The notes below the pieces were generated by a model that had not been told where the DNA came from, ran no database searches, and saw only the letters and a list, made by a program, of their open reading frames with translations. This document shows positions 780 through 13,738 of a stretch of 64,000 nucleotides of DNA, piece after piece. The stretch is from Haploplasma axanthum (GTDB lineage: Bacteria > Bacillota_I > Bacilli_A > Acholeplasmatales > Acholeplasmataceae). The position numbers and the translations under genes were made by a program. Position 1 is the first letter of the stretch. The number at the start of each line of letters is the position of its first letter. Location: NCBI RefSeq assembly GCF_900660745.1, contig NZ_LR215048.1, forward strand, positions 1,488,001-1,552,000, in the 5' to 3' direction.

Positions 780-2618
780 CTAAACATTTTCTATTAAACT
801 GTTTTCTTTTTCTTGCATAAATTGATTTTTATATAACTCAAAATATGCTCCTCGTTTGTTTAATAATTCTTGATGCGTACCTATTTCTAAAATTTTACCC
901 ATTTCAAGCATTACAATCAAATCACTATCTACAATTGTGGAAAGTCTATGAGCAACAATAATACTTGTTCTTCCTTTTAATAGTTTTTTAGTTGCATCTT
1001 GTAATACTCTTTCTGCTTCTGAATCGATTGATGAGGTTGCTTCATCTAGAATAAGAATTCTAGGATTTGCAATAATTGCTCTTGCAAACGAAATCAATTG
1101 TTTTTGTCCAAGAGATAATAAATTACCCCCTTCACCAACTTCAGTATCATAGCCTTTATCCAAATTCATAATAAATTCATGTGCTCCAACAACTTTTGCT
1201 GCATTAATCATTTCTTCATCTGTAGCATTTAATTTACCATATTTTATATTATCTTTCACAGTTGTACTAAACAGATGTGGTGACTGTAATACATAACCTA
1301 ATTGTGAATGTAACCAATGAATACTTCTTTCACGGTAATCAATACCATCAATTAAAACTTCTCCTGAAACTGGCTCATAAAATCTTGATAATAAATTTAC
1401 TAAAGTTGTTTTCCCTGATCCAGTATGTCCAACTAATGCAACGCTACTTCCAGCTTTAATTTTCAAATTAAAGTTATCAAGAATTTTTTCATCATCTTTG
1501 TAATAAAAAGTGATATCTTTGTACTCAACATTTCCATCAATTGGTTCAAATTGCTCTTTTTTATCATCTAGAATGTCGCCATATTTTTGGATAACTTCTT
1601 CTTTATCAATAATTTGAGGTTTTGTTTCAATTAATTCAACAATACGTTCTGCTGAAGCTTGTGCTTGTTGTACGTTTGTTAAAATTGATGTTAACATCAT
1701 GATTGGATCAAAGAAACTTGTTGTTGCTCTAATAAATAAAAACATTGTTCCAAGTGTAAATGTTGTATTAAGATTATCTAAAACATCAATACTACCTTGA
1801 TACATAACAATTGCAAGTGTTATATAAGTTGCGAATAACAATACCGATGAAAAAATTGCTGATATTGAAATTGCTCTAATACTTGATCTTTTTAAATCAT
1901 TAGTTACTTGCTCAAATTCAAATAAGTTTTGATCTTCAATAACCAAACTTTTTGTTGTTTTTGCTCCTAAAAAAGCTTCACTATATTTGGCTGTAGCCTG
2001 TGAATTATGTTTTCTAGACTCACGATGGCTATTCAAAATACTTTTTCTGAAAAGAAATGCGATTAAAAACATAATTGGTACTGATGCAAAAACAATTAAT
2101 CCTAATTTCCATGAATATGTAAATAGCACAACAAGTGTAAAAATCATAAATAATGCTGACCAAAAGAAATCTAATAATGTCCATGAAATAATATTTGCTA
2201 ATCTTCTTGAGTCTGATGTCATTCTCGCCATGATCCATCCTTGCGGAGTAACATCAAAGTATGAGAATGATAAACGTTGAAGATTTTCAAACGCTTCTCT
2301 ACGAAGATTATAATTAACATGGGCTTCAATAATACTTCCCTGTTTGATAAACGCCCAAACAAGTAAACCAAATGCAATTGCTATTAAAACATTTAATATA
2401 ATAAAAGGTGTTAATGTTGTAAAATCTTGGTTTTCAACAAACTTATCAATAGCATATTTATTAATAACATTTATTACTGTTTCAAGTCCAGCTAAAGTAA
2501 CTGCAAATAATATTAAAACTATTATCTTACCTTTTAAATCTTTAATTATCATCAATAGTCTTTTCCAAACACTAAATGATATTTTTTTAACGGAATCATC
2601 TTCTTTATAATTCTGCAT
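780..2618 (-). CDS. ABC exporter half-transporter, BmrD/YheH-like (canonical catalytic site)
   Basis: About 612 residues: an N-terminal six-helix exporter membrane domain (residues ~20-325) and a C-terminal ATPase. Walker A is GHTGSGKTT and Walker B is ILILDEATSSID, with the catalytic glutamate present. The signature is LSLGQKQLISFARA rather than LSGGQ. A degenerate signature combined with an intact glutamate is what the BmrD/YheH subunit of heterodimeric multidrug exporters shows, and it complements the next gene. The start is taken at ATG 2618, about 11 bases after AAAGGA; the GTG at 2627 is too close to that site. The gene overlaps the upstream half-transporter by 14 bases, so the two are translated together. 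Likely role: export of drugs or lipids as a heterodimer. The substrate is unknown. Confidence 0.88.
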   Translation of the reverse strand: MQNYKEDDSVKKISFSVWKRLLMIIKDLKGKIIVLILFAVTLAGLETVINVINKYAIDKFVENQDFTTLTPFIILNVLIAIAFGLLVWAFIKQGSIIEAHVNYNLRREAFENLQRLSFSYFDVTPQGWIMARMTSDSRRLANIISWTLLDFFWSALFMIFTLVVLFTYSWKLGLIVFASVPIMFLIAFLFRKSILNSHRESRKHNSQATAKYSEAFLGAKTTKSLVIEDQNLFEFEQVTNDLKRSSIRAISISAIFSSVLLFATYITLAIVMYQGSIDVLDNLNTTFTLGTMFLFIRATTSFFDPIMMLTSILTNVQQAQASAERIVELIETKPQIIDKEEVIQKYGDILDDKKEQFEPIDGNVEYKDITFYYKDDEKILDNFNLKIKAGSSVALVGHTGSGKTTLVNLLSRFYEPVSGEVLIDGIDYRERSIHWLHSQLGYVLQSPHLFSTTVKDNIKYGKLNATDEEMINAAKVVGAHEFIMNLDKGYDTEVGEGGNLLSLGQKQLISFARAIIANPRILILDEATSSIDSEAERVLQDATKKLLKGRTSIIVAHRLSTIVDSDLIVMLEMGKILEIGTHQELLNKRGAYFELYKNQFMQEKENSLIENV

Positions 2619-4443
2619 TTTTTTCACCGTCCTTTAACATGCTTAAAAATTCTTCTTCAAGTTTTCCTTGAATTTTCCATAAATTACTATATAATCCTGC
2701 TTTTTTACTTAATTCTTTATGTGTACCAATATTTTCAATTGTTCCATTATTAATGACAATTATTTTATCAGCTTCTTTTGCTGTTGTCATTCTATGAGTA
2801 ATGATAATATTAGTTTGTTCATTTTTTGTTTCTTTCAATGCTTTTCTAATATCTAAATCTGTTTTATTATCTAATGCACTTAGTGCATCATCAAAAATGA
2901 TTATCGGTTTATCAGTTACAAGAATTCTCGCAATTGCAACTCTTTGTTTTTGTCCACCTGATAATGTAGTGCCTTGTTCACCAACAATTGTTTCATAGCC
3001 ATTTTGGAAAGTCTTGATATCTTTTTCTAGAGCAGCAATTCTAGATGCTTCAAAGATTTTTTCTTTGCTTGCATTTGGATTAGCAATAGCAATATTTTCA
3101 TATACTGTTTTACTATACAAGAATGGATCTTGTAATACTGTTCCTATATTACTTCTTAGATATCGTTTCTTTATTTCTCTTAATTCAACACCATCAATTG
3201 TTATTGAACCTTCATAATCATACATTTTTAGTAATAGGTTAACGATTGTTGTTTTTCCACTTCCAGTTTTACCAATTATTGCTACAGTCTCACCTGGAAG
3301 AATTTCAAAACTAATATTTTCTAGTAAGTATTTATCGGTATTGTTAAATTTAAAATTTACATCTTTAAAAACAATATGTCCATGAATTTCAGGATTTAAC
3401 ACTCCATCATTTTCATACTCACTTTTTTCATTCATAATTGCTGAAAGTCTGCCTGCAGCAACTAGTGATTTACCAAAATCATTAATAATTCTACCTAAAC
3501 CTCTAACTGGCCAAATAAGCATCCCTGCCAACATTAATGCACTTGATATTGATGATACTGACATTGTTCCTTGTCTAGAAAAATGAATTCCAAACAATAA
3601 AACAACTAAAAATTGTACCATCATTAAAAAGTCCATAAATCCCCAATATATGGCAACCACTCTACTTGCTTTTATCTCAGATTCACGATATTCTTTATTT
3701 TTTGTTTCTAGTTTTTCAATTTCGTATTTTTCATTAGCAAATGCTCTTACTACTCTGGATGCTGAAACATTTTCTTGAATAACAACCATTAATTTTGATT
3801 CTTTCTCTTCAACATCAGTGAATAGTTTATCAATCTTTGTAAAATAAATGATTGATGATAGTGCTGTAATTGGAATAACTGCTAGAGATATCCACATGAT
3901 AGTTTCATTAACATAATACATTTGAAATGCACCTGAAACAAGTGATGCAACAAGTCCAATAGCATCCATAATACGGTAAGAAACAAAACTTGTTGTTGTA
4001 TCAATGTCTGATGTTACTCTTTGAATTAAATCTCCTGAATCAGCATTGTTATGATATTCATAACTTAAATTTTGGATATGATCATATGAGTTTACTCTTG
4101 ATTTTTTAGCAACATTCTCGCTTAATAATCCTTTTGCTCTTGATTCGAAATATAAGGTCAAATAACGTACAAATTGCCACACCAACATCATAATTATAAT
4201 ACTAATTACTACATTAATTATTTCAGTATTTTTATCAACAAAATCTAAAATAAAGTTTGGTAAATTCACAATATTAAGATCAGCACTTGGCTTTAACTTT
4301 AATTCTAATTTTTGTAGTAATAATTCACTAAATAGTGGTACATATGAGTAAGTTAAACGATGAAATATCGCCAAAATAACTACAAATATGAACAACCCCC
4401 AATTCCCCTTAACTAACTTAAATAATTCTTTAAAACGCTGCAT
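2605..4443 (-). CDS. ABC exporter half-transporter, BmrC/YheI-like (degenerate catalytic site)
   Basis: About 612 residues, beginning MQRFKELFKLVKG. An exporter membrane domain with six helices is followed by an ATPase with Walker A GKTGSGKTT and signature LSGGQKQRVAIARI. The Walker B end reads IIIFDDALSALD, where aspartate replaces the catalytic glutamate. Together with the neighbour this gives one consensus and one degenerate ATP site, the pattern of heterodimeric exporters such as BmrCD. The start at ATG 4443 has a strong GGGAGGA eight bases upstream; the open frame continues 32 codons further but would run into the previous gene. It follows the flavoprotein gene by 19 bases and belongs to the same operon. 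Confidence 0.88.
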   Translation of the reverse strand: MQRFKELFKLVKGNWGLFIFVVILAIFHRLTYSYVPLFSELLLQKLELKLKPSADLNIVNLPNFILDFVDKNTEIINVVISIIIMMLVWQFVRYLTLYFESRAKGLLSENVAKKSRVNSYDHIQNLSYEYHNNADSGDLIQRVTSDIDTTTSFVSYRIMDAIGLVASLVSGAFQMYYVNETIMWISLAVIPITALSSIIYFTKIDKLFTDVEEKESKLMVVIQENVSASRVVRAFANEKYEIEKLETKNKEYRESEIKASRVVAIYWGFMDFLMMVQFLVVLLFGIHFSRQGTMSVSSISSALMLAGMLIWPVRGLGRIINDFGKSLVAAGRLSAIMNEKSEYENDGVLNPEIHGHIVFKDVNFKFNNTDKYLLENISFEILPGETVAIIGKTGSGKTTIVNLLLKMYDYEGSITIDGVELREIKKRYLRSNIGTVLQDPFLYSKTVYENIAIANPNASKEKIFEASRIAALEKDIKTFQNGYETIVGEQGTTLSGGQKQRVAIARILVTDKPIIIFDDALSALDNKTDLDIRKALKETKNEQTNIIITHRMTTAKEADKIIVINNGTIENIGTHKELSKKAGLYSNLWKIQGKLEEEFLSMLKDGEKNAEL

Positions 4444-4462: not shown

Positions 4463-5632
4463 TTAATTAAAAATATTTTTACCAGCAGTATATCCAGTTG
4501 ATAATGCTGATGTAATATTAAATCCACCTGTATAGGCATTAATATCTAAAACTTCACCACAAAAAGATATTTTGTTATTAATTTTAGATTTCATTGTTTG
4601 AGGATTAACATTTTTAAGTGCTACTCCTCCATTTGTTACAAATGCACTTTTGAACCCTCTTGTTGTATATATATTAATTAAAAATGATTTAAATATATTA
4701 ACAATTTCTTCAAAAGTTTTAGATTTGTCTTCAATATATTTCACTAAACGTGCAGGTATATTATTATCTTTTAGTATTTTATAAAACACTTCTTTATCTT
4801 TTAATAGTGACTCTTTAGAATTGTTTGGAAGAAAATCAATCGAAATAATAACTTCTTTTTGTTTTTCTAACAAATTTAAAACTTCAAAGCTAGCTCTAAG
4901 AGCAGCTGGACCAGAAATTCCAAAATGAGTAATTAATAGATCATGTGTAATACTTTTTTTAATTTTATTTTTATCATTATAAATATTTAGTGTTACATCT
5001 TTGAATGATAATCCTTGAAGTTCTTTTGACATAATAAAATCATCATTAGATACTAATGGTACTTCTGCAGGAACAAAATCTGTAATTGTATGTCCTAAAT
5101 TTTTAGCAAACTCATGCCCTTTTCCATCTGATCCTGTATTTGGAAGAGTGATTCCACCGGTTGCAATTATCAAATAATCATATGTATATTTACCATTTGA
5201 AGTAATTATCTCTTTTTCAGTCACTTCTAAAACTAGTGTGTTAAATAATATTTTCACTTTTTCTTTTTCAATAACTCTTTTCAATGTATCAACAATATCA
5301 CTTGACTTATTACTAATAGGAAACATTCTAAAATGATCTTCCTCTTTTAATTCACATCCGTTTTTTTCAAAAAAACGGATGATATCCTTAGGATTGAAAT
5401 TTGCTAAACTACTATATAAAAACTTCCCGTTTTTAGGAACATTAACAATTACTTCTTCGTCATCAACATTTGCAGTAACGTTACATCTTCCTCCACCAGT
5501 TAATCTTAATTTTCTTCCTAATTCTTCATTTCTATCTATTAAAACAACTTCTAAATTCTTGTGGTGCATTTTAGCGCTTATTGCAGCCATCATTCCTGCT
5601 GGCCCACCACCAATAACAATTAATTTTTCCAT
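4463..5632 (-). CDS. NAD(P)/FAD-dependent oxidoreductase, YhiN/HI0933 family
   Basis: 389 residues. The N-terminal FAD-binding Rossmann motif is GGGPAGMMAAISAK, followed by the family signature LTGGGRCNVT at about residues 45-54. Mid-protein is ATGGITLPNTGSDG, and the C-terminal flavin loop is CGEVLDINAYTGGFN, all as in HI0933-like flavoproteins. The physiological substrate of this family is not established. The gene is first in an operon with the BmrC/BmrD-like exporter and is preceded by a leader peptide and attenuator. An AGGAG site lies just upstream of ATG 5632. In this arrangement the terminator stem ends about ten bases before the gene, so read-through of that hairpin controls expression of this gene and probably of the exporter. 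Confidence 0.85.
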   Translation of the reverse strand: MEKLIVIGGGPAGMMAAISAKMHHKNLEVVLIDRNEELGRKLRLTGGGRCNVTANVDDEEVIVNVPKNGKFLYSSLANFNPKDIIRFFEKNGCELKEEDHFRMFPISNKSSDIVDTLKRVIEKEKVKILFNTLVLEVTEKEIITSNGKYTYDYLIIATGGITLPNTGSDGKGHEFAKNLGHTITDFVPAEVPLVSNDDFIMSKELQGLSFKDVTLNIYNDKNKIKKSITHDLLITHFGISGPAALRASFEVLNLLEKQKEVIISIDFLPNNSKESLLKDKEVFYKILKDNNIPARLVKYIEDKSKTFEEIVNIFKSFLINIYTTRGFKSAFVTNGGVALKNVNPQTMKSKINNKISFCGEVLDINAYTGGFNITSALSTGYTAGKNIFN

Positions 5633-5641
5633 AATTACTCC

Positions 5642-5675
5642 TAAAAAATAAAAACATCCAATTTATGTTGGATGT
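5642..5675 (-). terminator. Rho-independent terminator acting as attenuator of the flavoprotein-exporter operon
   Basis: On the minus strand ACATCCAA pairs with TTGGATGT around a six-base loop, followed directly by TTTTATTTTTT. The T tract ends immediately before the Shine-Dalgarno site of the gene at 5632. A terminator placed at the entrance of a gene, downstream of its own promoter and a short ORF, is the layout of transcription attenuation. Confidence 0.75.
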
Positions 5676-5766
5676 CAAAAAGCATATAAATATACAAAAT
5701 TGTATCGTATTAAAAAAACGAGTGAAAAATGATTGGCAAATTAAATAATAATTCCCCTGTATAAGT

Positions 5767-5820
5767 ATATTTTTAGTGACATCTATTAACTTTTGTGCCT
5801 ACTAAAAATATGTGCAGGCA
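5767..5820 (-). promoter_or_regulatory. Alternative hairpin region of the attenuator
   Basis: Three mutually exclusive pairings can be read on the minus strand. First, TGCCTGC (5820-5814) pairs with GTAGGCA (5802-5796). Second, ATATTTTTAGT (5811-5801), which overlaps the first hairpin, pairs perfectly with ACTAAAAATAT (5777-5767). Third, GATGTCA (5783-5777) can pair with TGACATC (5677-5671), the 5' arm of the terminator, and would act as an antiterminator. The first arm begins two bases after the stop of the leader ORF, so a ribosome finishing the leader would cover it. The pairings are seen in the sequence; the regulatory logic is inferred. Confidence 0.6.
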
Positions 5821-5821
5821 A

Positions 5822-5848
5822 CTATTTTCTAATCCACACTTTAACCAT
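5822..5848 (-). CDS. Leader peptide (8 residues) of the flavoprotein-exporter operon
   Basis: ATG 5848 to TAG 5822 encodes MVKVWIRK. An excellent AAAGGAG lies nine bases upstream (5864-5858), and the promoter lies 15 bases before that. Such a strong translation start on so short an ORF, followed by alternative hairpins and a terminator, marks it as a regulatory leader. In Bacillus subtilis the bmrCD exporter operon is controlled by the bmrB leader through ribosome-mediated attenuation, induced by translation-inhibiting antibiotics. The present operon encodes a similar exporter, so the same kind of control is a reasonable inference. I claim no sequence similarity to bmrB itself. Confidence 0.65.
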   Translation of the reverse strand: MVKVWIRK

Positions 5849-5879
5849 TGTTACTCACTCCTTTCGTTTATCTTTTTTT

Positions 5880-5908
5880 ATTGTATCATTTATTTTATTA
5901 TATAACAA
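5880..5908 (-). promoter_or_regulatory. Sigma-A type promoter of the leader-flavoprotein-exporter operon
   Basis: On the minus strand TTGTTA (5908-5903), a spacer of exactly 17, then TACAAT (5885-5880) preceded by TG one base upstream. Transcription would begin near 5873, ten or so bases before the leader's ribosome-binding site. Confidence 0.65.
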
Positions 5909-5933: not shown

Positions 5934-7517
5934 TTAACCATAATATTTAATATTATCAAGATTTATTGTTCCACCAATAACTTCAAATTTAATTATGACA
6001 TTATCTTTATCAACTAAGATTTCATAGTTCTTGAATTTTTCTGTTAATTCAATTTTCTCAATTATTTCTCCATCTGCAGCTATTATTTTAACAACAAAGT
6101 TCAAATCATGATCAAAGTACTCACCAGAACCAAAAAGTCTTGCATCAAATGTTATTTTCGAAACATATTCAAAGGCATTAACATTATACAAAACTGCTGT
6201 ATATGTTGTTTGTCCCTTTCCTCGAAGTCTTCCTACTACATTACCATTACTTTCATTCATATATGCTAATTCTTTTTCATTATGAATATCTTCAGGCTTT
6301 ACTCTTAATTCTTGAACTATATATTTTATACCATTAAAATCGTATTCAACTTCTTCTGTATCAAACTCTTTAATATCAATACCTGTTTCAAAATCTATTG
6401 AATAAAAAGGAACATCGCTATTATTTTTTTCTGGATTTGATTTCCAAAGAATATTATCAATAGTCAAACGATGTCCACTACTAACCTCAATTGACATACT
6501 ATATGTACCTTTAACATTTAGATTATCTATAATAATTTTCTTACCCTTATCGGCTTCATTATCATCTTTAAATTGAAAATCTTTAACTACTTCATTATTG
6601 ATTTTTACTATTACATGGACGTTTGCTGGTTTATCACCGCCAGGTACTTGTGGATATTTTGATTTTGGAGAGAAAGGAAGTCTAGCATCAAACTCTAAAT
6701 ATGAAATTCCTTTTTCGATTTCTCTACCATATATACCACCTACACCTGGGCCATCACCATTACCACGCCCTGCAAAAGTCAGAGCATTACCTCCAGCTTT
6801 TAATCCTAAATCAATTCTTGTTTTAACTAGTTCCCATTCGACACCACTATTTCCTATAAATGGTTCATAGTCCATATATTCACTTGAATTATTACCACTA
6901 TTTTTCATAGCCTCTAAAAACTCAAAGTCTTCAACAAAAATCTCGATTTCTTCTTTTTCTTCAATCCATCTAGCGAATAAGTTTAAATCACCATCAATAA
7001 TTTGATTAGTATCAAAAGCTTCAGATTCACTAATCATCCAGCCAACAAACTTATATCCTTCTCTTGTTGGATTTGTAATTGAACCAATTGTATTACCCTC
7101 TTGAACAATAATCTCTTTTATTTCCGGATTATCTCCATAGTTATAATTAAAATTAATTTTATACTCTAATTTATTTTCTTTCTTAATAACTATTAAATTA
7201 AATTCTTTGTTATACTCTTTTTCTGAAATTGTTACATAAGCCGTTAGTTTAACATTAACATTAGTATCAATCCGTTTGACAATTCCAATATTCTTATCAA
7301 TTGAAACTGCATCATTATCACTCACCCAATTAATATCATAACTTCCTGTTTTTAACATCAGGTTAATATTATTTGTTACACTTGAACTTGAATCATTTCC
7401 ATTATATGTTATTTGAATTTGTTCTACATATTTTTGAGCATGATCTTCAACTTTTTTACACCCAGTTATTAAAAAAAGTGTTAAAATGATTGTTATTAGT
7501 AAATATATCTTCTTCAT
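5934..7517 (-). CDS. Secreted lipoprotein with Ig-like, InlB-repeat and two jelly-roll-like domains
   Basis: About 527 residues from ATG 7517; ATG 7526 is an equally placed alternative. The lipoprotein signal peptide MKKIYLLITI... ends in the lipobox LITGC with Cys20. Then follow a small Ig-like unit (residues ~30-115: ITYNGNDSSSSV, INWVSDNDAVSI); one InlB/Listeria-Bacteroides repeat (about 120-190: TNPTREGYKFVGWMIS and LFARW); and two similar beta-rich units of about 150 residues. Each beta unit has an EDFE or IDFE opening, a glycine-rich middle and a closing T-I-D-N-I or N-L-D-N-I motif, as in carbohydrate-binding-like jelly rolls. No catalytic domain is recognised. It is divergent from the NRPS gene. 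A short GCCAT/ATGGC hairpin follows the stop. Likely a surface binding protein; the ligand is unknown. Confidence 0.75.
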   Translation of the reverse strand: MKKIYLLITIILTLFLITGCKKVEDHAQKYVEQIQITYNGNDSSSSVTNNINLMLKTGSYDINWVSDNDAVSIDKNIGIVKRIDTNVNVKLTAYVTISEKEYNKEFNLIVIKKENKLEYKINFNYNYGDNPEIKEIIVQEGNTIGSITNPTREGYKFVGWMISESEAFDTNQIIDGDLNLFARWIEEKEEIEIFVEDFEFLEAMKNSGNNSSEYMDYEPFIGNSGVEWELVKTRIDLGLKAGGNALTFAGRGNGDGPGVGGIYGREIEKGISYLEFDARLPFSPKSKYPQVPGGDKPANVHVIVKINNEVVKDFQFKDDNEADKGKKIIIDNLNVKGTYSMSIEVSSGHRLTIDNILWKSNPEKNNSDVPFYSIDFETGIDIKEFDTEEVEYDFNGIKYIVQELRVKPEDIHNEKELAYMNESNGNVVGRLRGKGQTTYTAVLYNVNAFEYVSKITFDARLFGSGEYFDHDLNFVVKIIAADGEIIEKIELTEKFKNYEILVDKDNVIIKFEVIGGTINLDNIKYYG

Positions 7518-7550
7518 TAATTCCATCCAGCCTTTTATGTTATTTGTTTT

Positions 7551-7559
7551 ATTATAACA
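7551..7559 (-). promoter_or_regulatory. Extended -10 promoter of the lipoprotein gene
   Basis: TGTTATAAT on the minus strand, 34 bases before the lipoprotein ATG. No -35 at the expected distance stands out. It lies within the 116-base divergent region shared with the NRPS gene. Confidence 0.5.
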
Positions 7560-7633
7560 TAAATAAAATATCATTTTTGTTAATCTATGGTAATATAATC
7601 ATATATACACTTTCTTTACAATTGGAGGTAATC

Positions 7634-10600
7634 ATGTTTAGTCTTAACGATTCTCAAACTAGTTTTTTAAATGCTATAAAAATCCATAATAATTATCCTT
7701 CTAATATCGGTGGAGTTTTTAAAATACCAGAAAATATTAATGATCTAGATAAAAAAATTTTTGATTACTTTAATTCCATTCCTATCCTAAAAACCAAACT
7801 TACTTGTACTAATAATTCTACTTATCAATACATTGATTATGAATCAACGATTAAAGTAAATAAAATTTCAAGTCATGAAATGAATTCTTTCTTTGAAGAA
7901 TCCTTTAGTTTATATAATTCACTTCTTTTTAAAGTTGCTTTAAGTGATAATAATATTATTATTGTTTCACACCACATATTATTAGATGGTGGATCAATTA
8001 AGCTTCTTATCAATAATTTGTATAGTTATTTAGAGTTTAATATTACTCCCTCATTTAACGATAGACCATTAACGTCCCTTAGTTCGAAAAATAGCTATTA
8101 TGATTTTTGGAATAAAGAATTAAGTAATAATATTTATACTCCAATAAGACTTAAAAGATTAGATTCAAGTATATCAAGTGCTAAACGAAAAATGGTAACC
8201 ATTGATAGTTCATTGTCAAAAAAGATTAATCTTTTAACAGAACAATATGCCATATCAAAATCATGTTTCTTTGAGGCAATTATATCCTTATATATTTCGT
8301 ATATTAATGATTCTAATAATATAATCATTGGTACATCAACTCATAATAGAAATTATAAAAACAAAGATTCATTAGGTATGTTTGCTAAAACATTACCGCT
8401 ATCAATTTCAATTAACAAAGAATTTACCTTCATAGATTTACTCACTTCTCTTAAGAAGAAACATTATGAAATATTGCGTAATAGAGAAATTTCTTATGAA
8501 GAGATATTAAAAATTAAAAATCAATTATTTGATGTTATTGTTATTGACCATGGAAAATTCACTTATGAAAATAACTTTCTTTTCTATCCTTCTTTAGAAC
8601 TTAGTTTGGTTCTAAATATTGTTGAAAAAAACAATGAAATTATTCTTTATTTTGATTATAAAGAATCTATTTTTAATGAAACTGAAATTAATCGTTTAAT
8701 CAAACGGATTAAACTACTTATAAAACAATCAGTTGTAAATCCTAAAATTGAGTCAATTAATTATTTATTGGATGATGAAAAGTTTTTAATAAAACAATCA
8801 AATGAAATCCCCTCAGTTCTTGAGTTATATTATCAAAATCTCTACCAATCAATTGATAGCATCGCTATTATTGATAATAATATTCAATATACTTTTAATG
8901 ATTTGGAGTTATTATCTAACAAACTTGCCAACAAACTATTATTAATTAAAGATGACATAGTTGCAATAGATATAAAGAAATCATTTTATTCAATTGCAGC
9001 AATGCTAGCTATTATTAAAGCTGGTAAGACTTTTGTTTTTAAGACTTCATATAATCAAGATTTTCTTCAAGATTACTTTCATTTAAATCATGAATTCTTT
9101 AACTCTCTAAATTTTAAATCTGAAAAACTATTTATAAAAGAAAATCAATTTTTATGTCGTTACTATACATCTGGAACAACGAATAGAAAGGAAGTTTTCA
9201 TAAAGAATATTAGTGTTGCAAATCACATCAATAATCATGACAGTTATCAACAACAAAGTAAAGATACTAATGTAATTCCAAGCGTGGCAATGCTACATTT
9301 TGATATTAGTTTAGAAGAAATCATGCTTGCCTTATTAAATAAAAAAACATTACTACTATTTGATGAAAATAGTCTTTCAAATCCTAAATATATCAATAAC
9401 CAATTTTTACAATATAATGTCGATTTTTTCACTACTACTCCTTCAGTCTTTAATTATTTATGGCAAAATGGAGCAATAGAAAGCTTAAAGAATCTAAAAA
9501 TAATAGTCTTAGGTGGTGAAGTACTCACTAAAAGTATCGCCAAAGTAATTTTGGAAAACACAAATTCAAAATTATATAATAGTTATGGTCCAACTGAAAC
9601 TACAATCGCTGTTACATCTATAGAAATAACTGATTATAAAAAGATTCCAATTGGAAAAGCACACGACAATATCAACATTATTATTACTAACAATAAGAGT
9701 ACTCTTCCTAAATATGAGATTGGCGAGATCTTAATAAGTGGTATTTCTGTTGCACGTATTAATGAGGATCGATTTGTTATTATCAAAAATGTAATTTACT
9801 ATAAAACAGGGGATTATGGTTATCAAGATGAACATAATCATTTTTATTATATTGGAAGAATTGATTCAGAAATAAAACGTAATGGTGTAAGAATAAATCT
9901 TTCTTATATTGATAGAGTCCTAGAAAAAAATGATTATATTGAAAAATCAGTTTCGACTTTTAATAATAATTTAATTACAACTTTTTATAACACCAAGTCC
10001 AAAGTTAATAAAAGTGTTCTTTATGAACATCTTATATCATCATTACCAAAAGAGATTATTCCTAACAATTTAGTTGAAGTATCAAAATTTGATATTACTG
10101 CTGAAGGAAAAATCAAATTCAATTCAAAAACAATTGAACATAATTTAATCCCTTATAAGCCTAAATCATTACTTCGAAAAAAAGTACTTACTATTTTTAT
10201 GAATAACCTAGAAACTGATAATATTAGTATAAATGATTATTATCTAACAAAAGGTGGAGACTCAATTAAAGCACTTCTTTTAATTGCTACTCTTGAAGAG
10301 TTTAATCTTAAAATTAATGTTGATGATTTATTTCAAAAAACTATTGCAAATATTATTGATGAAATCAAAGTTGTAAAACATAAAAAAATATACATTCAAA
10401 ACAACGATTTTTTAGTTAAAGAAATAGTTTTTACTTCTAATAAAAAAATATTATTATATGGTTCATCAGGTTTTTTAGGTATACACATACTAAATGAACT
10501 AATCGAGACAACAAACTTAAAAATTGTTATTCCACTCAGAATTAGTTATCTTGATTTTCTTAATCGTTATTATGACTTTTTTGGTACTTCTTTAGATGAA

Positions 10601-11341
10601 TCTAGAATTGAATATCTAAGTTTTAATACATTTATTGACTATTCTAAGATTTGTTTTGTTATTAATGCTACTGGTAATGTAAAATATATTGATACATATG
10701 AAAATTTAACTGGAATTAATGTTAGATTTTTAAACTCTTTAGTTTCTAATTCTATTAAGAACGAGGTTCCGTTAGTTCATATTTCAACTTTAGGTTTATC
10801 AAACTCATATAAACTATTAAAAGAAAATACAAATAAATTACACATTGAATATAATAATCCTTATTTGAATAGTAAAGCTAGTGCTGAAAAAAGAATCTTT
10901 GATCAAAATAATCCCTATTTAAGAATTATTCGAGTTGGTAATTTAATGCCAAACTTTGATACTAACAAATTTCAATTAAATCCTCACGATAATGCATTTT
11001 TAAGATTGTTGTCAACACTTAGCAAGGAAAGTATTCAAACAAATTATACATTTGATATTACACCAGTTGACGTTGCTGCTAAAGCAATTTTAAAGACACT
11101 ATTATTTAATAATAAAGTTTCACATATATTAAATCCTTATCCATTTAAATTTAATGATTTAATTGATAGTAAGGAAAAAAGAATAGTTAGTTTAGGAAAT
11201 GATGTTATTTATTCTATAAAAAAAATTGACTCTTTAGAAACAACTTCATGTTTGAAAAAAGTCAATTTTACATATCCGATATTAGATAAAAAATATCTTG
11301 AGAATCTTTTAAAACTCGCTAACAAAATATTTAACGAATAA
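7634..11341 (+). CDS. Single-module non-ribosomal peptide synthetase, C-A-PCP-reductase
   Basis: 1235 residues from ATG 7634, which has TGGAGGT eight bases upstream; the open frame extends 48 codons further without a site. Domains: condensation (1-~385) with HHILLDG at 113-119; adenylation (~395-840) with YTSGTTNRKE at 511-520, FDIS with Asp557 in the place that binds an alpha-amino group, YGPTET at 651-656, YKTGD at 723-727, GRIDSEIKRNGVRI at 741-754 and Lys826; carrier (~845-915) with GGDSIKA, Ser877 being the phosphopantetheine site; and a thioester reductase (~930-1235) with NAD(P) loop GSSGFLG at 943-949 and Tyr1077-x3-Lys1081. The product should be released as an aldehyde or alcohol. 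Starting with a condensation domain, it may accept an acyl chain or a separately loaded donor. No phosphopantetheinyl transferase is visible nearby. Its base composition matches its neighbours. Confidence 0.9.
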   Translation: MFSLNDSQTSFLNAIKIHNNYPSNIGGVFKIPENINDLDKKIFDYFNSIPILKTKLTCTNNSTYQYIDYESTIKVNKISSHEMNSFFEESFSLYNSLLFKVALSDNNIIIVSHHILLDGGSIKLLINNLYSYLEFNITPSFNDRPLTSLSSKNSYYDFWNKELSNNIYTPIRLKRLDSSISSAKRKMVTIDSSLSKKINLLTEQYAISKSCFFEAIISLYISYINDSNNIIIGTSTHNRNYKNKDSLGMFAKTLPLSISINKEFTFIDLLTSLKKKHYEILRNREISYEEILKIKNQLFDVIVIDHGKFTYENNFLFYPSLELSLVLNIVEKNNEIILYFDYKESIFNETEINRLIKRIKLLIKQSVVNPKIESINYLLDDEKFLIKQSNEIPSVLELYYQNLYQSIDSIAIIDNNIQYTFNDLELLSNKLANKLLLIKDDIVAIDIKKSFYSIAAMLAIIKAGKTFVFKTSYNQDFLQDYFHLNHEFFNSLNFKSEKLFIKENQFLCRYYTSGTTNRKEVFIKNISVANHINNHDSYQQQSKDTNVIPSVAMLHFDISLEEIMLALLNKKTLLLFDENSLSNPKYINNQFLQYNVDFFTTTPSVFNYLWQNGAIESLKNLKIIVLGGEVLTKSIAKVILENTNSKLYNSYGPTETTIAVTSIEITDYKKIPIGKAHDNINIIITNNKSTLPKYEIGEILISGISVARINEDRFVIIKNVIYYKTGDYGYQDEHNHFYYIGRIDSEIKRNGVRINLSYIDRVLEKNDYIEKSVSTFNNNLITTFYNTKSKVNKSVLYEHLISSLPKEIIPNNLVEVSKFDITAEGKIKFNSKTIEHNLIPYKPKSLLRKKVLTIFMNNLETDNISINDYYLTKGGDSIKALLLIATLEEFNLKINVDDLFQKTIANIIDEIKVVKHKKIYIQNNDFLVKEIVFTSNKKILLYGSSGFLGIHILNELIETTNLKIVIPLRISYLDFLNRYYDFFGTSLDESRIEYLSFNTFIDYSKICFVINATGNVKYIDTYENLTGINVRFLNSLVSNSIKNEVPLVHISTLGLSNSYKLLKENTNKLHIEYNNPYLNSKASAEKRIFDQNNPYLRIIRVGNLMPNFDTNKFQLNPHDNAFLRLLSTLSKESIQTNYTFDITPVDVAAKAILKTLLFNNKVSHILNPYPFKFNDLIDSKEKRIVSLGNDVIYSIKKIDSLETTSCLKKVNFTYPILDKKYLENLLKLANKIFNE

Positions 11342-11347
11342 ACATTT

Positions 11348-13738
11348 TTATAATTCTTTTAAAGCACCGATCATATCAATCTTCTTAATTTTCGTATTCA
11401 TAAATATTTCAACAATTACTGTAAATAAAACAGTTAATGCAATTGAGATAACATATGTATACCATGAAATATTTCTTCCCATCATCATACTTGGTGTATC
11501 TATATTTACAATAACAAACATAAACAATAGTAAACCAAGTGGAACTCCAAGAATAATTCCTACAAAAGTCATTACGTTTATTTCTCTAAAAATATAATTA
11601 GATACTTCCAGATTTTTATATCCTAGAACTTTCAAAGTTGCAAGTTCTTTTTCTCTTTCACTAATATTAACATTTGTTAAATTATAGATAACGATTATTG
11701 CTAGAAATGCTGCAGCTAAGATAATAACTGAAGCTATCATTCTAACTTGCCCTAATAATCGTTCTTTTGCTATTAACTCGTTATTTTTAAATGAAATGCT
11801 TAAGAAACCATCAAGTTTTTCAAAGTCTGCCTTAACTAAATCATCATCAATATTACTTGATTTAATTAACAGCTTTGTTGTTAATTGTTCAATTTTCGAA
11901 AAATGTTCTTCATAGTATTTAGAAGTCATATAAATCGAATTATTCATATAATTTTCTGTTATTCCAGTAATTTTTAAATCTTTAACTCCTGCAAGTTCAA
12001 TCGTATCATTTTCTTTAACTTTCAAGTGATTTGAGATTTGTTCGGTTATTAGAATACCTTCTTCATTTAAATTAAGGATTTCTTTAGTTTTACGATTTTT
12101 AAATTCATAAAAATTTTCTAATCTTTCATCACCGATTATAACATTTATATAAAACTTGTTTTTACCATCTTTTGAAGTTAATGACTGACTGAATTCTTTT
12201 ATTTCTATATAATCATTAAAGTTATTATCTAAATAAGTACTTAGTTCATCTGTTAATTCATTAATATTAACAGTAAAATCATATTTATATATTTCACCAT
12301 ATTGTCTTGTAGACACCGCTTTAATCGAATCTGTTAACGCAAATCCCGTAAATACTAAAGCTAATGATCCAGCAATACCTAAAACTGTCATAATAAAATT
12401 ATTAGGGTATCTAAAAAGATTTCTTAAACTAGATTTATGTTTAAACTTTAGATTGTTCCATATAAATTTAATCTTTTCTAAAAAGATTCTTTTTCCATAT
12501 TTAGGTGCTTTTGGAAGCATTAGGGTTGCAACATTTTGTCTTAATGTTTTTCTTATTGCAAATACAGTTGTTAAAACCATACTTATAATAATAAATACCA
12601 TATATAAAACATTGGATAATGAAAAAATATCAGTATTTAGTTTAGGCATAAAAAAGATTGTTTTAAAGGTATTATTTATAATTGCTGGGATTAACCTAAA
12701 TCCAGCAGCATAACCAATACCTGCGCCTAAAATTGATAATACTAAAGCATACATCAAATATTTTGCATAAATATCACTTCTTTTATATCCTAATGAACGT
12801 AGAATACCTGTTTCTTGTCTTTCTTCTTCAATTAATCTCGTCATTGTTGTTAAGACAACAAGTGTTGATACTATTAAGAAAAAGATTGGGAAAATTTGCG
12901 TTATTGTACTAATTGAATTCATTGATGAACTATACATTTGGTATGCTGTGTTAGTGCTTCTATCTAAGACATAATTCTTTATGTCATAGTCTTCAAAACC
13001 ATAAAATTCAAGTTTTTGTTTATCAATGTCGATTAGTTTTTCATTTAATTTGATTATTTCATCGTCGATTAAATTAGTATAAGAATTACTAAATTGATTC
13101 ATGCTTTTATCTTTGTCTACAGTAATGAAAAGATGTGTATAAAGACTAACATTTTCAGCTTTTAATCCATAAAAAATTGCTTCAATAGTATTTGTACCTT
13201 CAACAGATCTTTCAGGTTCTTTAGAAAAATACCAAGTATTTTCAACAATCCCTGATACTGAATATTCAATATTATTGATAACTACTTTGCTACCAACACT
13301 AAATTCTTTCAAATAATATGTTTCCCTTTGAACAAGAATTTCTGTTTCATCCTTTGGATATTCACCATCAATTAATGTCAATCTATTAATCTTTTGATTT
13401 TCGATATCTAAATTATATAAAATACTTTGAACTGTTGTAACATTGTTTACGATTGCTAAAACATCATTCATGAAAACTCCTTCTACGTCTTTAAAATCAG
13501 CTCTTAGAGTTTCAATATTTTCATCATTAAAAGGTAATGTTGATGTTACATACATATCTGCTAAATTAACATCATTAAATTTTTCTGTCATACTCATTTC
13601 TAAGTTTGGTGCGGCAACTAATAATCCAGTAATTACACCTGATGTTAAAAGAATAATACTAAACATTGCTAAAAAACGGCTAATATTGTGTTTAATTGTT
13701 TTAAAACTATTTTTCCAAAATGTTTTTTTCATTACCAT
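11348..13738 (-). CDS. ABC transporter permease, FtsX/MacB type with two FtsX domains
   Basis: 796 residues. An N-terminal membrane helix (about 18-40) is followed by a large extracellular region. Then come FtsX domains with three helices at ~275-400 and again near the C-terminus (~665-790), with another helix at ~445-465 and a second extracellular region between. The motif RLIEEERQETGILRSLGYKRSDI and its second copy NISEREKELATLKVLGYKNLEV are typical of FtsX permeases. The ATG at 13738 overlaps the stop of the ATPase gene, so ATPase and permease are coupled. With the MarR gene this forms a three-gene operon typical of self-regulated export of antimicrobials or lipids. Confidence 0.85.
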   Translation of the reverse strand: MVMKKTFWKNSFKTIKHNISRFLAMFSIILLTSGVITGLLVAAPNLEMSMTEKFNDVNLADMYVTSTLPFNDENIETLRADFKDVEGVFMNDVLAIVNNVTTVQSILYNLDIENQKINRLTLIDGEYPKDETEILVQRETYYLKEFSVGSKVVINNIEYSVSGIVENTWYFSKEPERSVEGTNTIEAIFYGLKAENVSLYTHLFITVDKDKSMNQFSNSYTNLIDDEIIKLNEKLIDIDKQKLEFYGFEDYDIKNYVLDRSTNTAYQMYSSSMNSISTITQIFPIFFLIVSTLVVLTTMTRLIEEERQETGILRSLGYKRSDIYAKYLMYALVLSILGAGIGYAAGFRLIPAIINNTFKTIFFMPKLNTDIFSLSNVLYMVFIIISMVLTTVFAIRKTLRQNVATLMLPKAPKYGKRIFLEKIKFIWNNLKFKHKSSLRNLFRYPNNFIMTVLGIAGSLALVFTGFALTDSIKAVSTRQYGEIYKYDFTVNINELTDELSTYLDNNFNDYIEIKEFSQSLTSKDGKNKFYINVIIGDERLENFYEFKNRKTKEILNLNEEGILITEQISNHLKVKENDTIELAGVKDLKITGITENYMNNSIYMTSKYYEEHFSKIEQLTTKLLIKSSNIDDDLVKADFEKLDGFLSISFKNNELIAKERLLGQVRMIASVIILAAAFLAIIVIYNLTNVNISEREKELATLKVLGYKNLEVSNYIFREINVMTFVGIILGVPLGLLLFMFVIVNIDTPSMMMGRNISWYTYVISIALTVLFTVIVEIFMNTKIKKIDMIGALKEL

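Follow-up and report, generated by a model that had tools for sequence, protein, structure and literature searches.

The bmrB leader of Bacillus subtilis is a 53-codon ORF that precedes bmrC/bmrCD and contains both the terminator and the antiterminator (PMC4191407), and the vmlR leader of the same species has a three-codon uORF that is located inside SL-1 and works with several peptide variants (PMC9226507). A further experimental precedent for the switch logic considered here is provided by rli80-hflXr in Listeria monocytogenes, which differs in having an RLR arrest motif and HflXr as its target (PMC6310831). In the msrDL-msrD system of streptococci, macrolide-dependent stalling on a short leader peptide controls a resistance gene; it would be similar to the present locus in these respects, but is peptide-specific, depends on cladinose macrolides and has an ABC-F target (PMC10314930).

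Here, we analyzed a window of 64,000 nucleotides (positions 1,488,001–1,552,000 of the complete 1.88 Mb genome) from Haploplasma axanthum, a member of the Acholeplasma family, in which a candidate leader lies on the minus strand ahead of a flavoprotein gene and two ABC exporter genes. All positions given below are those of the window. The first-pass annotation had likened this leader to bmrB. The functional logic of that comparison held: both systems have a translated leader, an anti-antiterminator, an antiterminator and a terminator, and a heterodimeric ABC exporter related to YheI/YheH (PMC4191407). The architecture did not, since the window leader has only 8 codons, its arms and terminator lie outside the ORF rather than within it, the flavoprotein gene comes first, and sequence homology was not found. 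The uORF of vmlR is likewise very short, and there, too, stalling blocks an anti-antiterminator, the untranslated leader is off, and early-stalling drugs induce, as predicted for the window leader; however, vmlR encodes an ABC-F factor and is additionally subject to translation attenuation (PMC9226507). Furthermore, arm A of the window leader is located past the stop codon, unlike in vmlR, and a ribosome reaching this arm would constitute the off signal. By the features tested, the window leader is not a bmrB homolog, and its likeness to bmrB and vmlR is functional only.

The minus strand between 5908 and 5640 contains, in order, a promoter-like site, a Shine-Dalgarno (SD) sequence, an 8-codon ORF, three arms (A, B and C) and a terminator, ahead of the flavoprotein gene. 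The promoter-like site (5880–5908; TTGTTA and TACAAT separated by 17 nt, with a TG before the −10 that makes an extended −10, TGATACAAT) is a consensus match only. The TGATACAAT element is also present ahead of the leaders of several relatives. Promoter-like matches are no more common than expected by chance (50 found vs. 58.9 expected), and the match alone therefore proves nothing. The leader ORF (5822–5848) encodes MVKVWIRK, ends in TAG and is preceded by a strong SD, AAAGGAG (5858–5864), at a distance of 9 nt from the ATG. Few sites in the window combine a strong SD with a start codon, and those that do almost always begin long genes.

Arm A (TGCCTGC, 5814–5820) starts 1 nt past the leader stop codon and pairs with GTAGGCA (5802–5796) in arm B (ATATTTTTAGTAGGCA, 5796–5811), forming an A:B hairpin of 7 bp, including one G-U pair, at −8.8 kcal/mol. 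Arm B can alternatively pair with arm C (GATGTCACTAAAAATAT, 5767–5783) in a B:C hairpin at −9.9 kcal/mol, the core of which consists of 11 bp between ATATTTTTAGT (5811–5801) and ACTAAAAATAT (5777–5767). Arm C, in turn, can form a 7 bp antiterminator (C:T1) between GATGTCA (5783–5777) and TGACATC (5677–5671) at the terminator 5′ arm. The intrinsic terminator itself (T1:T2; GACATCCAA-CATAAA-TTGGATGTT, 5653–5676, followed by a T-rich tail) has a 9 bp stem with a ΔG of −9.6 and ends 21 nt before the flavoprotein start codon. A further stretch, with approximate limits of 5712 and 5756, is predicted to pair with the leader SD and ORF if the ribosome is absent, corresponding to an off state. Upon folding, A:B, B:C, C:T1 and T1:T2 behaved as a competing chain, and B:C was extended to about 15–16 pairs, taking in the TGTC of the antiterminator arm and thereby consuming most of GATGTCA. 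The first-pass annotation had listed the promoter, the SD, the ORF, pairings of 7, 11 and 7 bp and a terminator abutting the gene, and had proposed that the three pairings were mutually exclusive. Each of these elements was confirmed on the minus strand, and the extension of B:C makes the exclusivity stronger than originally stated. The leader RNA as a whole folds with an MFE z-score of −4.1, and none of 200 shuffled sequences folded as well. Of the 55 window ORFs examined, only the flavoprotein gene has a terminator ≤60 nt upstream of its start.

The first structural gene of the operon encodes a flavoprotein that matches the HI0933/TIGR00275 family (4463–5632). It is followed by the two exporter halves, assigned by homology and motifs, which match YheI (BmrC) and YheH (BmrD), in the same order. 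Half 1 (2605–4443) most likely starts at 4443 rather than at the listed 4539, based on the correspondence between its N-terminus, MQRFKELFKL, and the MKRIKQLFKL of its homologs. The pair has the characteristics of a heterodimeric exporter, with a non-catalytic Walker B Asp in half 1 (IIIFDD) and a degenerate, non-canonical signature in half 2 (LSLGQ; 780–2627). The next gene, identified by a domain match, encodes a bPH_2-domain membrane protein (254–745) and is a putative member of the operon. All of these genes are on the minus strand.

The effect of ribosome position was modeled by partition-function folding of the transcript at the point where the terminator 5′ arm emerges, with the ribosome masking ≈29 nt; such folding is limited to secondary structure and takes account of neither pseudoknots nor real kinetics. 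While the P-site was within codons 1–5, A:B formed with a probability of 0.91–0.95, and the C:T1 antiterminator reached 0.99 at codons 1–3 and 0.90–0.91 at codons 4–5. At codon 6, C:T1 dropped to 0.02, and it was 0.00 at all positions beyond, up to the stop codon, as well as without a ribosome; B:C formed instead. Folding with the ribosome footprint yielded a sharp switch between codons 5 and 6, and reproduced the sequence of events put forward in the first-pass annotation, in which an early ribosome leads through A:B to C:T1, and a ribosome at the end of the leader leads through B:C to the terminator. The switch was stable at 30 and 37 °C and with the footprint edge placed anywhere from +12 to +17; across these settings, the switch point shifted by no more than one codon. 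With an early ribosome (codons 1–3), the on state was favored over the off state by ≈9 kcal/mol. (On-state energies were used for codons 1–5 only; from codon 6 on, the enforced pairs override the footprint.) The observed ribosome-dependent difference was not reached by any of 420 dinucleotide shuffles of the middle segment between leader and terminator, nor by any of 420 replacement segments taken from other window DNA.

When the full-length RNA was folded at equilibrium, the terminator won in every case, and C:T1 reached at most 0.16, even with an early ribosome. The action of the antiterminator must therefore be kinetic and precede synthesis of the second terminator arm, as in other attenuators. 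Before T1 emerges, the balance between A:B and B:C with an early ribosome was mixed (A:B 0.44–0.69).

Based on this modeling and on the leaders of relatives described below, it is likely that the window leader is a transcription attenuator controlled by ribosome position, in which the operon is on when the ribosome is held early. In unstressed cells, the leading ribosome would run through the 8-codon ORF to the stop codon and cover arm A, leaving B free to pair with C; the terminator would then form, and transcription would stop before the flavoprotein gene. A ribosome held within codons 1–5 would leave arm A available for pairing with B, thereby releasing C, which would pair with the terminator 5′ arm and let the RNA polymerase read into the flavoprotein-ABC-ABC operon. 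Read-through would thus follow an early hold of the ribosome. In the absence of a ribosome, the predicted structure buries the leader SD and ORF and includes B:C, which would keep the operon off, implying that translation of the leader would be required for induction. The agent that holds the ribosome is probably an inhibitor acting at initiation or on the first codons, such as a lincosamide-, pleuromutilin- or phenicol-like compound, and the putative exporter may extrude such ribosome-targeting drugs.

A search of 88 family genomes with the window leader DNA returned no homolog, but only short AT-rich chance matches besides the leader itself. The surrounding genes were compared by way of their orthologs in the family. 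A search of the family contigs for the flavoprotein yielded one relative, Acholeplasma granularum, without a leader. Linkage between the flavoprotein and ABC genes is kept in a genome of the same genus (G001), which has no leader. More informative were the orthologs of the first ABC gene, which gave one high-identity match per genome, 58–68% identical in two other lineages: an Acholeplasma genus represented by eight genomes (g11), and G015 (locus L053), which we take to be a palmae-like species. In seven of the eight g11 genomes (loci L055, L064–L067, L069 and L070) and in G015, an SD-preceded leader ORF is found ≈180–200 nt, and a terminator 31–39 nt, before the ABC start codon. The g11 ABC gene is not linked to the flavoprotein. 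The first-pass annotation had proposed the flavoprotein as a new member of such a regulon; it is indeed the first gene of the operon in the window, but the target conserved among the relatives is the ABC genes, and the flavoprotein is linked to these in two species only. Judging from the gene arrangement, the target that the leaders share across species is the exporter rather than the flavoprotein, and the leader precedes the flavoprotein in the window species because the operon there now begins with that gene.

The g11 leaders consist of a promoter-like element (in most cases with an extended −10), a GGAGG site, an ORF of 14–18 codons (encoding, for example, MVIKKCTLFIIGNNK and MLIIRVKPFIGGNY) and a terminator. 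Their pairing chain comprises SD region:A, with A inside the ORF, followed by A:B, B:C, C:T1 and T1:T2. The g11 arms covary. In an alignment of six distinct sequences with hand-cut arms, a procedure that favors the structure, 93.3% of cells were paired, and double-sided changes occurred in 9 of 35 pairs, compared to 4.3 in shuffles, none of which (0/500) scored as high. Such changes were found in all four helices, with three in the C:T1 antiterminator alone. When the register was slid by 1–3 columns, pairing fell to 35–59%. Upon folding, a P-site at codon 4–5 favored A:B (0.70–0.98), and one at the last codons favored B:C. At equilibrium after the emergence of T1, C:T1 was dominant at every ribosome position in several g11 leaders, and the mechanism there would therefore need B:C as a kinetic trap. 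An off state without a ribosome, predicted for the window leader, was not uniform in the g11 models. When a covariance model built from the g11 leaders was searched against the 88 genomes, strong matches were obtained at its seven training loci only, indicating that this leader has no wider regulon among them.

Several other features of these leaders were observed. In most of the seven, the SD region (ATGAATRGGAGG) and the arm A that lies within the ORF are complementary to each other, and translation of the g11 leader may itself be gated by the SD:A pairing. Three of them (L069, L055 and L070) hold a +X+ motif (KRK, KGR and RVK, respectively) at codons 5–7, where arrest would, in the model, place the ribosome over arm A. 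The eighth g11 genome (G061; L068, ≈3300–3480, minus strand) lacks the conserved leader, but a strong terminator is located 27 nt ahead of its ABC start. GATGACTCC in this region could pair with GGAAGTCAT in the terminator 5′ arm and loop, and it is possible that the region is a reduced attenuator without a clear ORF.

The G015 leader represents a third, unrelated type (MNKLYTMSASMMQVDLTTFIHNITVSSL), the end of which can pair with the terminator 5′ arm and loop. Pairing of T1 was ≈0.7 with the ribosome at codons 1–16, and 0.3–0.5 at most codons from 17 on. The other ABC orthologs scanned had no leader ORF, and their terminators, if any, were mostly >55 nt upstream, with the exception of one distant family, whose terminator is a plain intergenic one. 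In family f3 (L116, L117, L119 and L123), there is an upstream gene and a terminator 18–36 nt before the ABC start, but no leader ORF.

We considered the possibility that the terminator is constitutive or leaky, or that a protein or small molecule controls it, the short ORF being incidental. The lack of a homolog of the window leader would be compatible with this, and an alternative promoter-like site at 5728–5699 would give rise to a transcript that bypasses the leader ORF. However, ribosome-dependent switching was matched by none of the 840 controls, the leader ORF has a strong SD, and in two other lineages the same ABC gene is preceded by a leader ORF and a nearby terminator. Furthermore, when the window and eight related loci were searched against Rfam, no riboswitch or leader family reached the gathering score. 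We thus consider this explanation unlikely.

Macrolide-specific arrest by the nascent chain, as in the ermDL, hflXr or mef leaders, is quite improbable. The basic residues R7 and K8 are near the end of the peptide, and some of the relatives' leaders hold the +X+ (R/K-X-R/K) macrolide arrest motif, but this motif is not present in MVKVWIRK, and a ribosome arrested late in the peptide would be on arm A, which was scored off. It is also very improbable that the leader senses starvation for Trp or Arg, with the ribosome waiting at the single Trp codon (codon 5) or the AGA at codon 7. While a wait for Trp would place the P-site at codon 4, which was scored on (0.91), a wait at codon 7 would place it at codon 6, which was scored off. 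The operon encodes a flavoprotein and an exporter and has no biosynthesis genes, MVKVWIRK has only one Trp codon, and the leader peptides before the orthologous exporter (MVIKKCTLFIIGNNK, MLKNTLILFIIGGLN, MLTIKRKLFIMGEDY and others) have no Trp and no common amino-acid run. Since the peptides share neither a +X+ nor an amino-acid pattern, the design fits neither macrolide +X+ arrest nor amino-acid sensing. Finally, there is almost no chance that the terminator belongs to the lipoprotein-like gene upstream on the same strand (end at 5934) and that the flavoprotein has its own promoter, as the terminator is ≈260 nt past that gene, a weaker hairpin (TGCCATAAAATGGCG) directly follows its stop codon, and the 21 nt before the flavoprotein ATG are too short for a promoter, so that the flavoprotein gene must be transcribed through the terminator.

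Control by ribosome position, as proposed above for the window leader, may extend beyond this species. We tentatively suggest that acholeplasmas possess fast-diverging, peptide-independent ribosome-position sensors, in which a chain of four to six RNA arms with mutually exclusive pairings turns the exporter on only with a ribosome on the first codons, and both a finished and an untranslated leader are off; this logic would persist despite changes in the sequence, the leader length and the first gene, with the flavoprotein as a new component of the drug response. The same exporter is found in three lineages behind leaders that are common in design, but not in sequence, providing a natural collection in which the evolution of such switches can be studied, and in which sensing of ribosome position can be tested against reading of the peptide. 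In the literature searched, which excluded most subscription journals, no report of an antibiotic-sensing leader in Mollicutes was found, and a ribosome-mediated attenuator of this kind appears to be undescribed in this group. Mollicutes have no cell wall, making ribosome-targeting drugs central against them. Acholeplasmas, for which a drug-inducible exporter is predicted here, are common cell-culture contaminants that are treated with ribosome-targeting antibiotics.

The gene directly upstream of the leader (5934–7574, minus strand) encodes a putative lipoprotein with atrophied Ig-like and Listeria-Bacteroides repeat domains. Beside the operon, on the plus strand (7490–11341), is a gene for an NRPS-like protein with condensation and AMP-binding domains, a weak carrier domain and a thioester-reductase-like NAD_binding_4 domain, which is unexpected in an Acholeplasma-like mollicute. 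It is adjoined by a gene for an FtsX/MacB-type ABC permease (11348–13738, minus strand).
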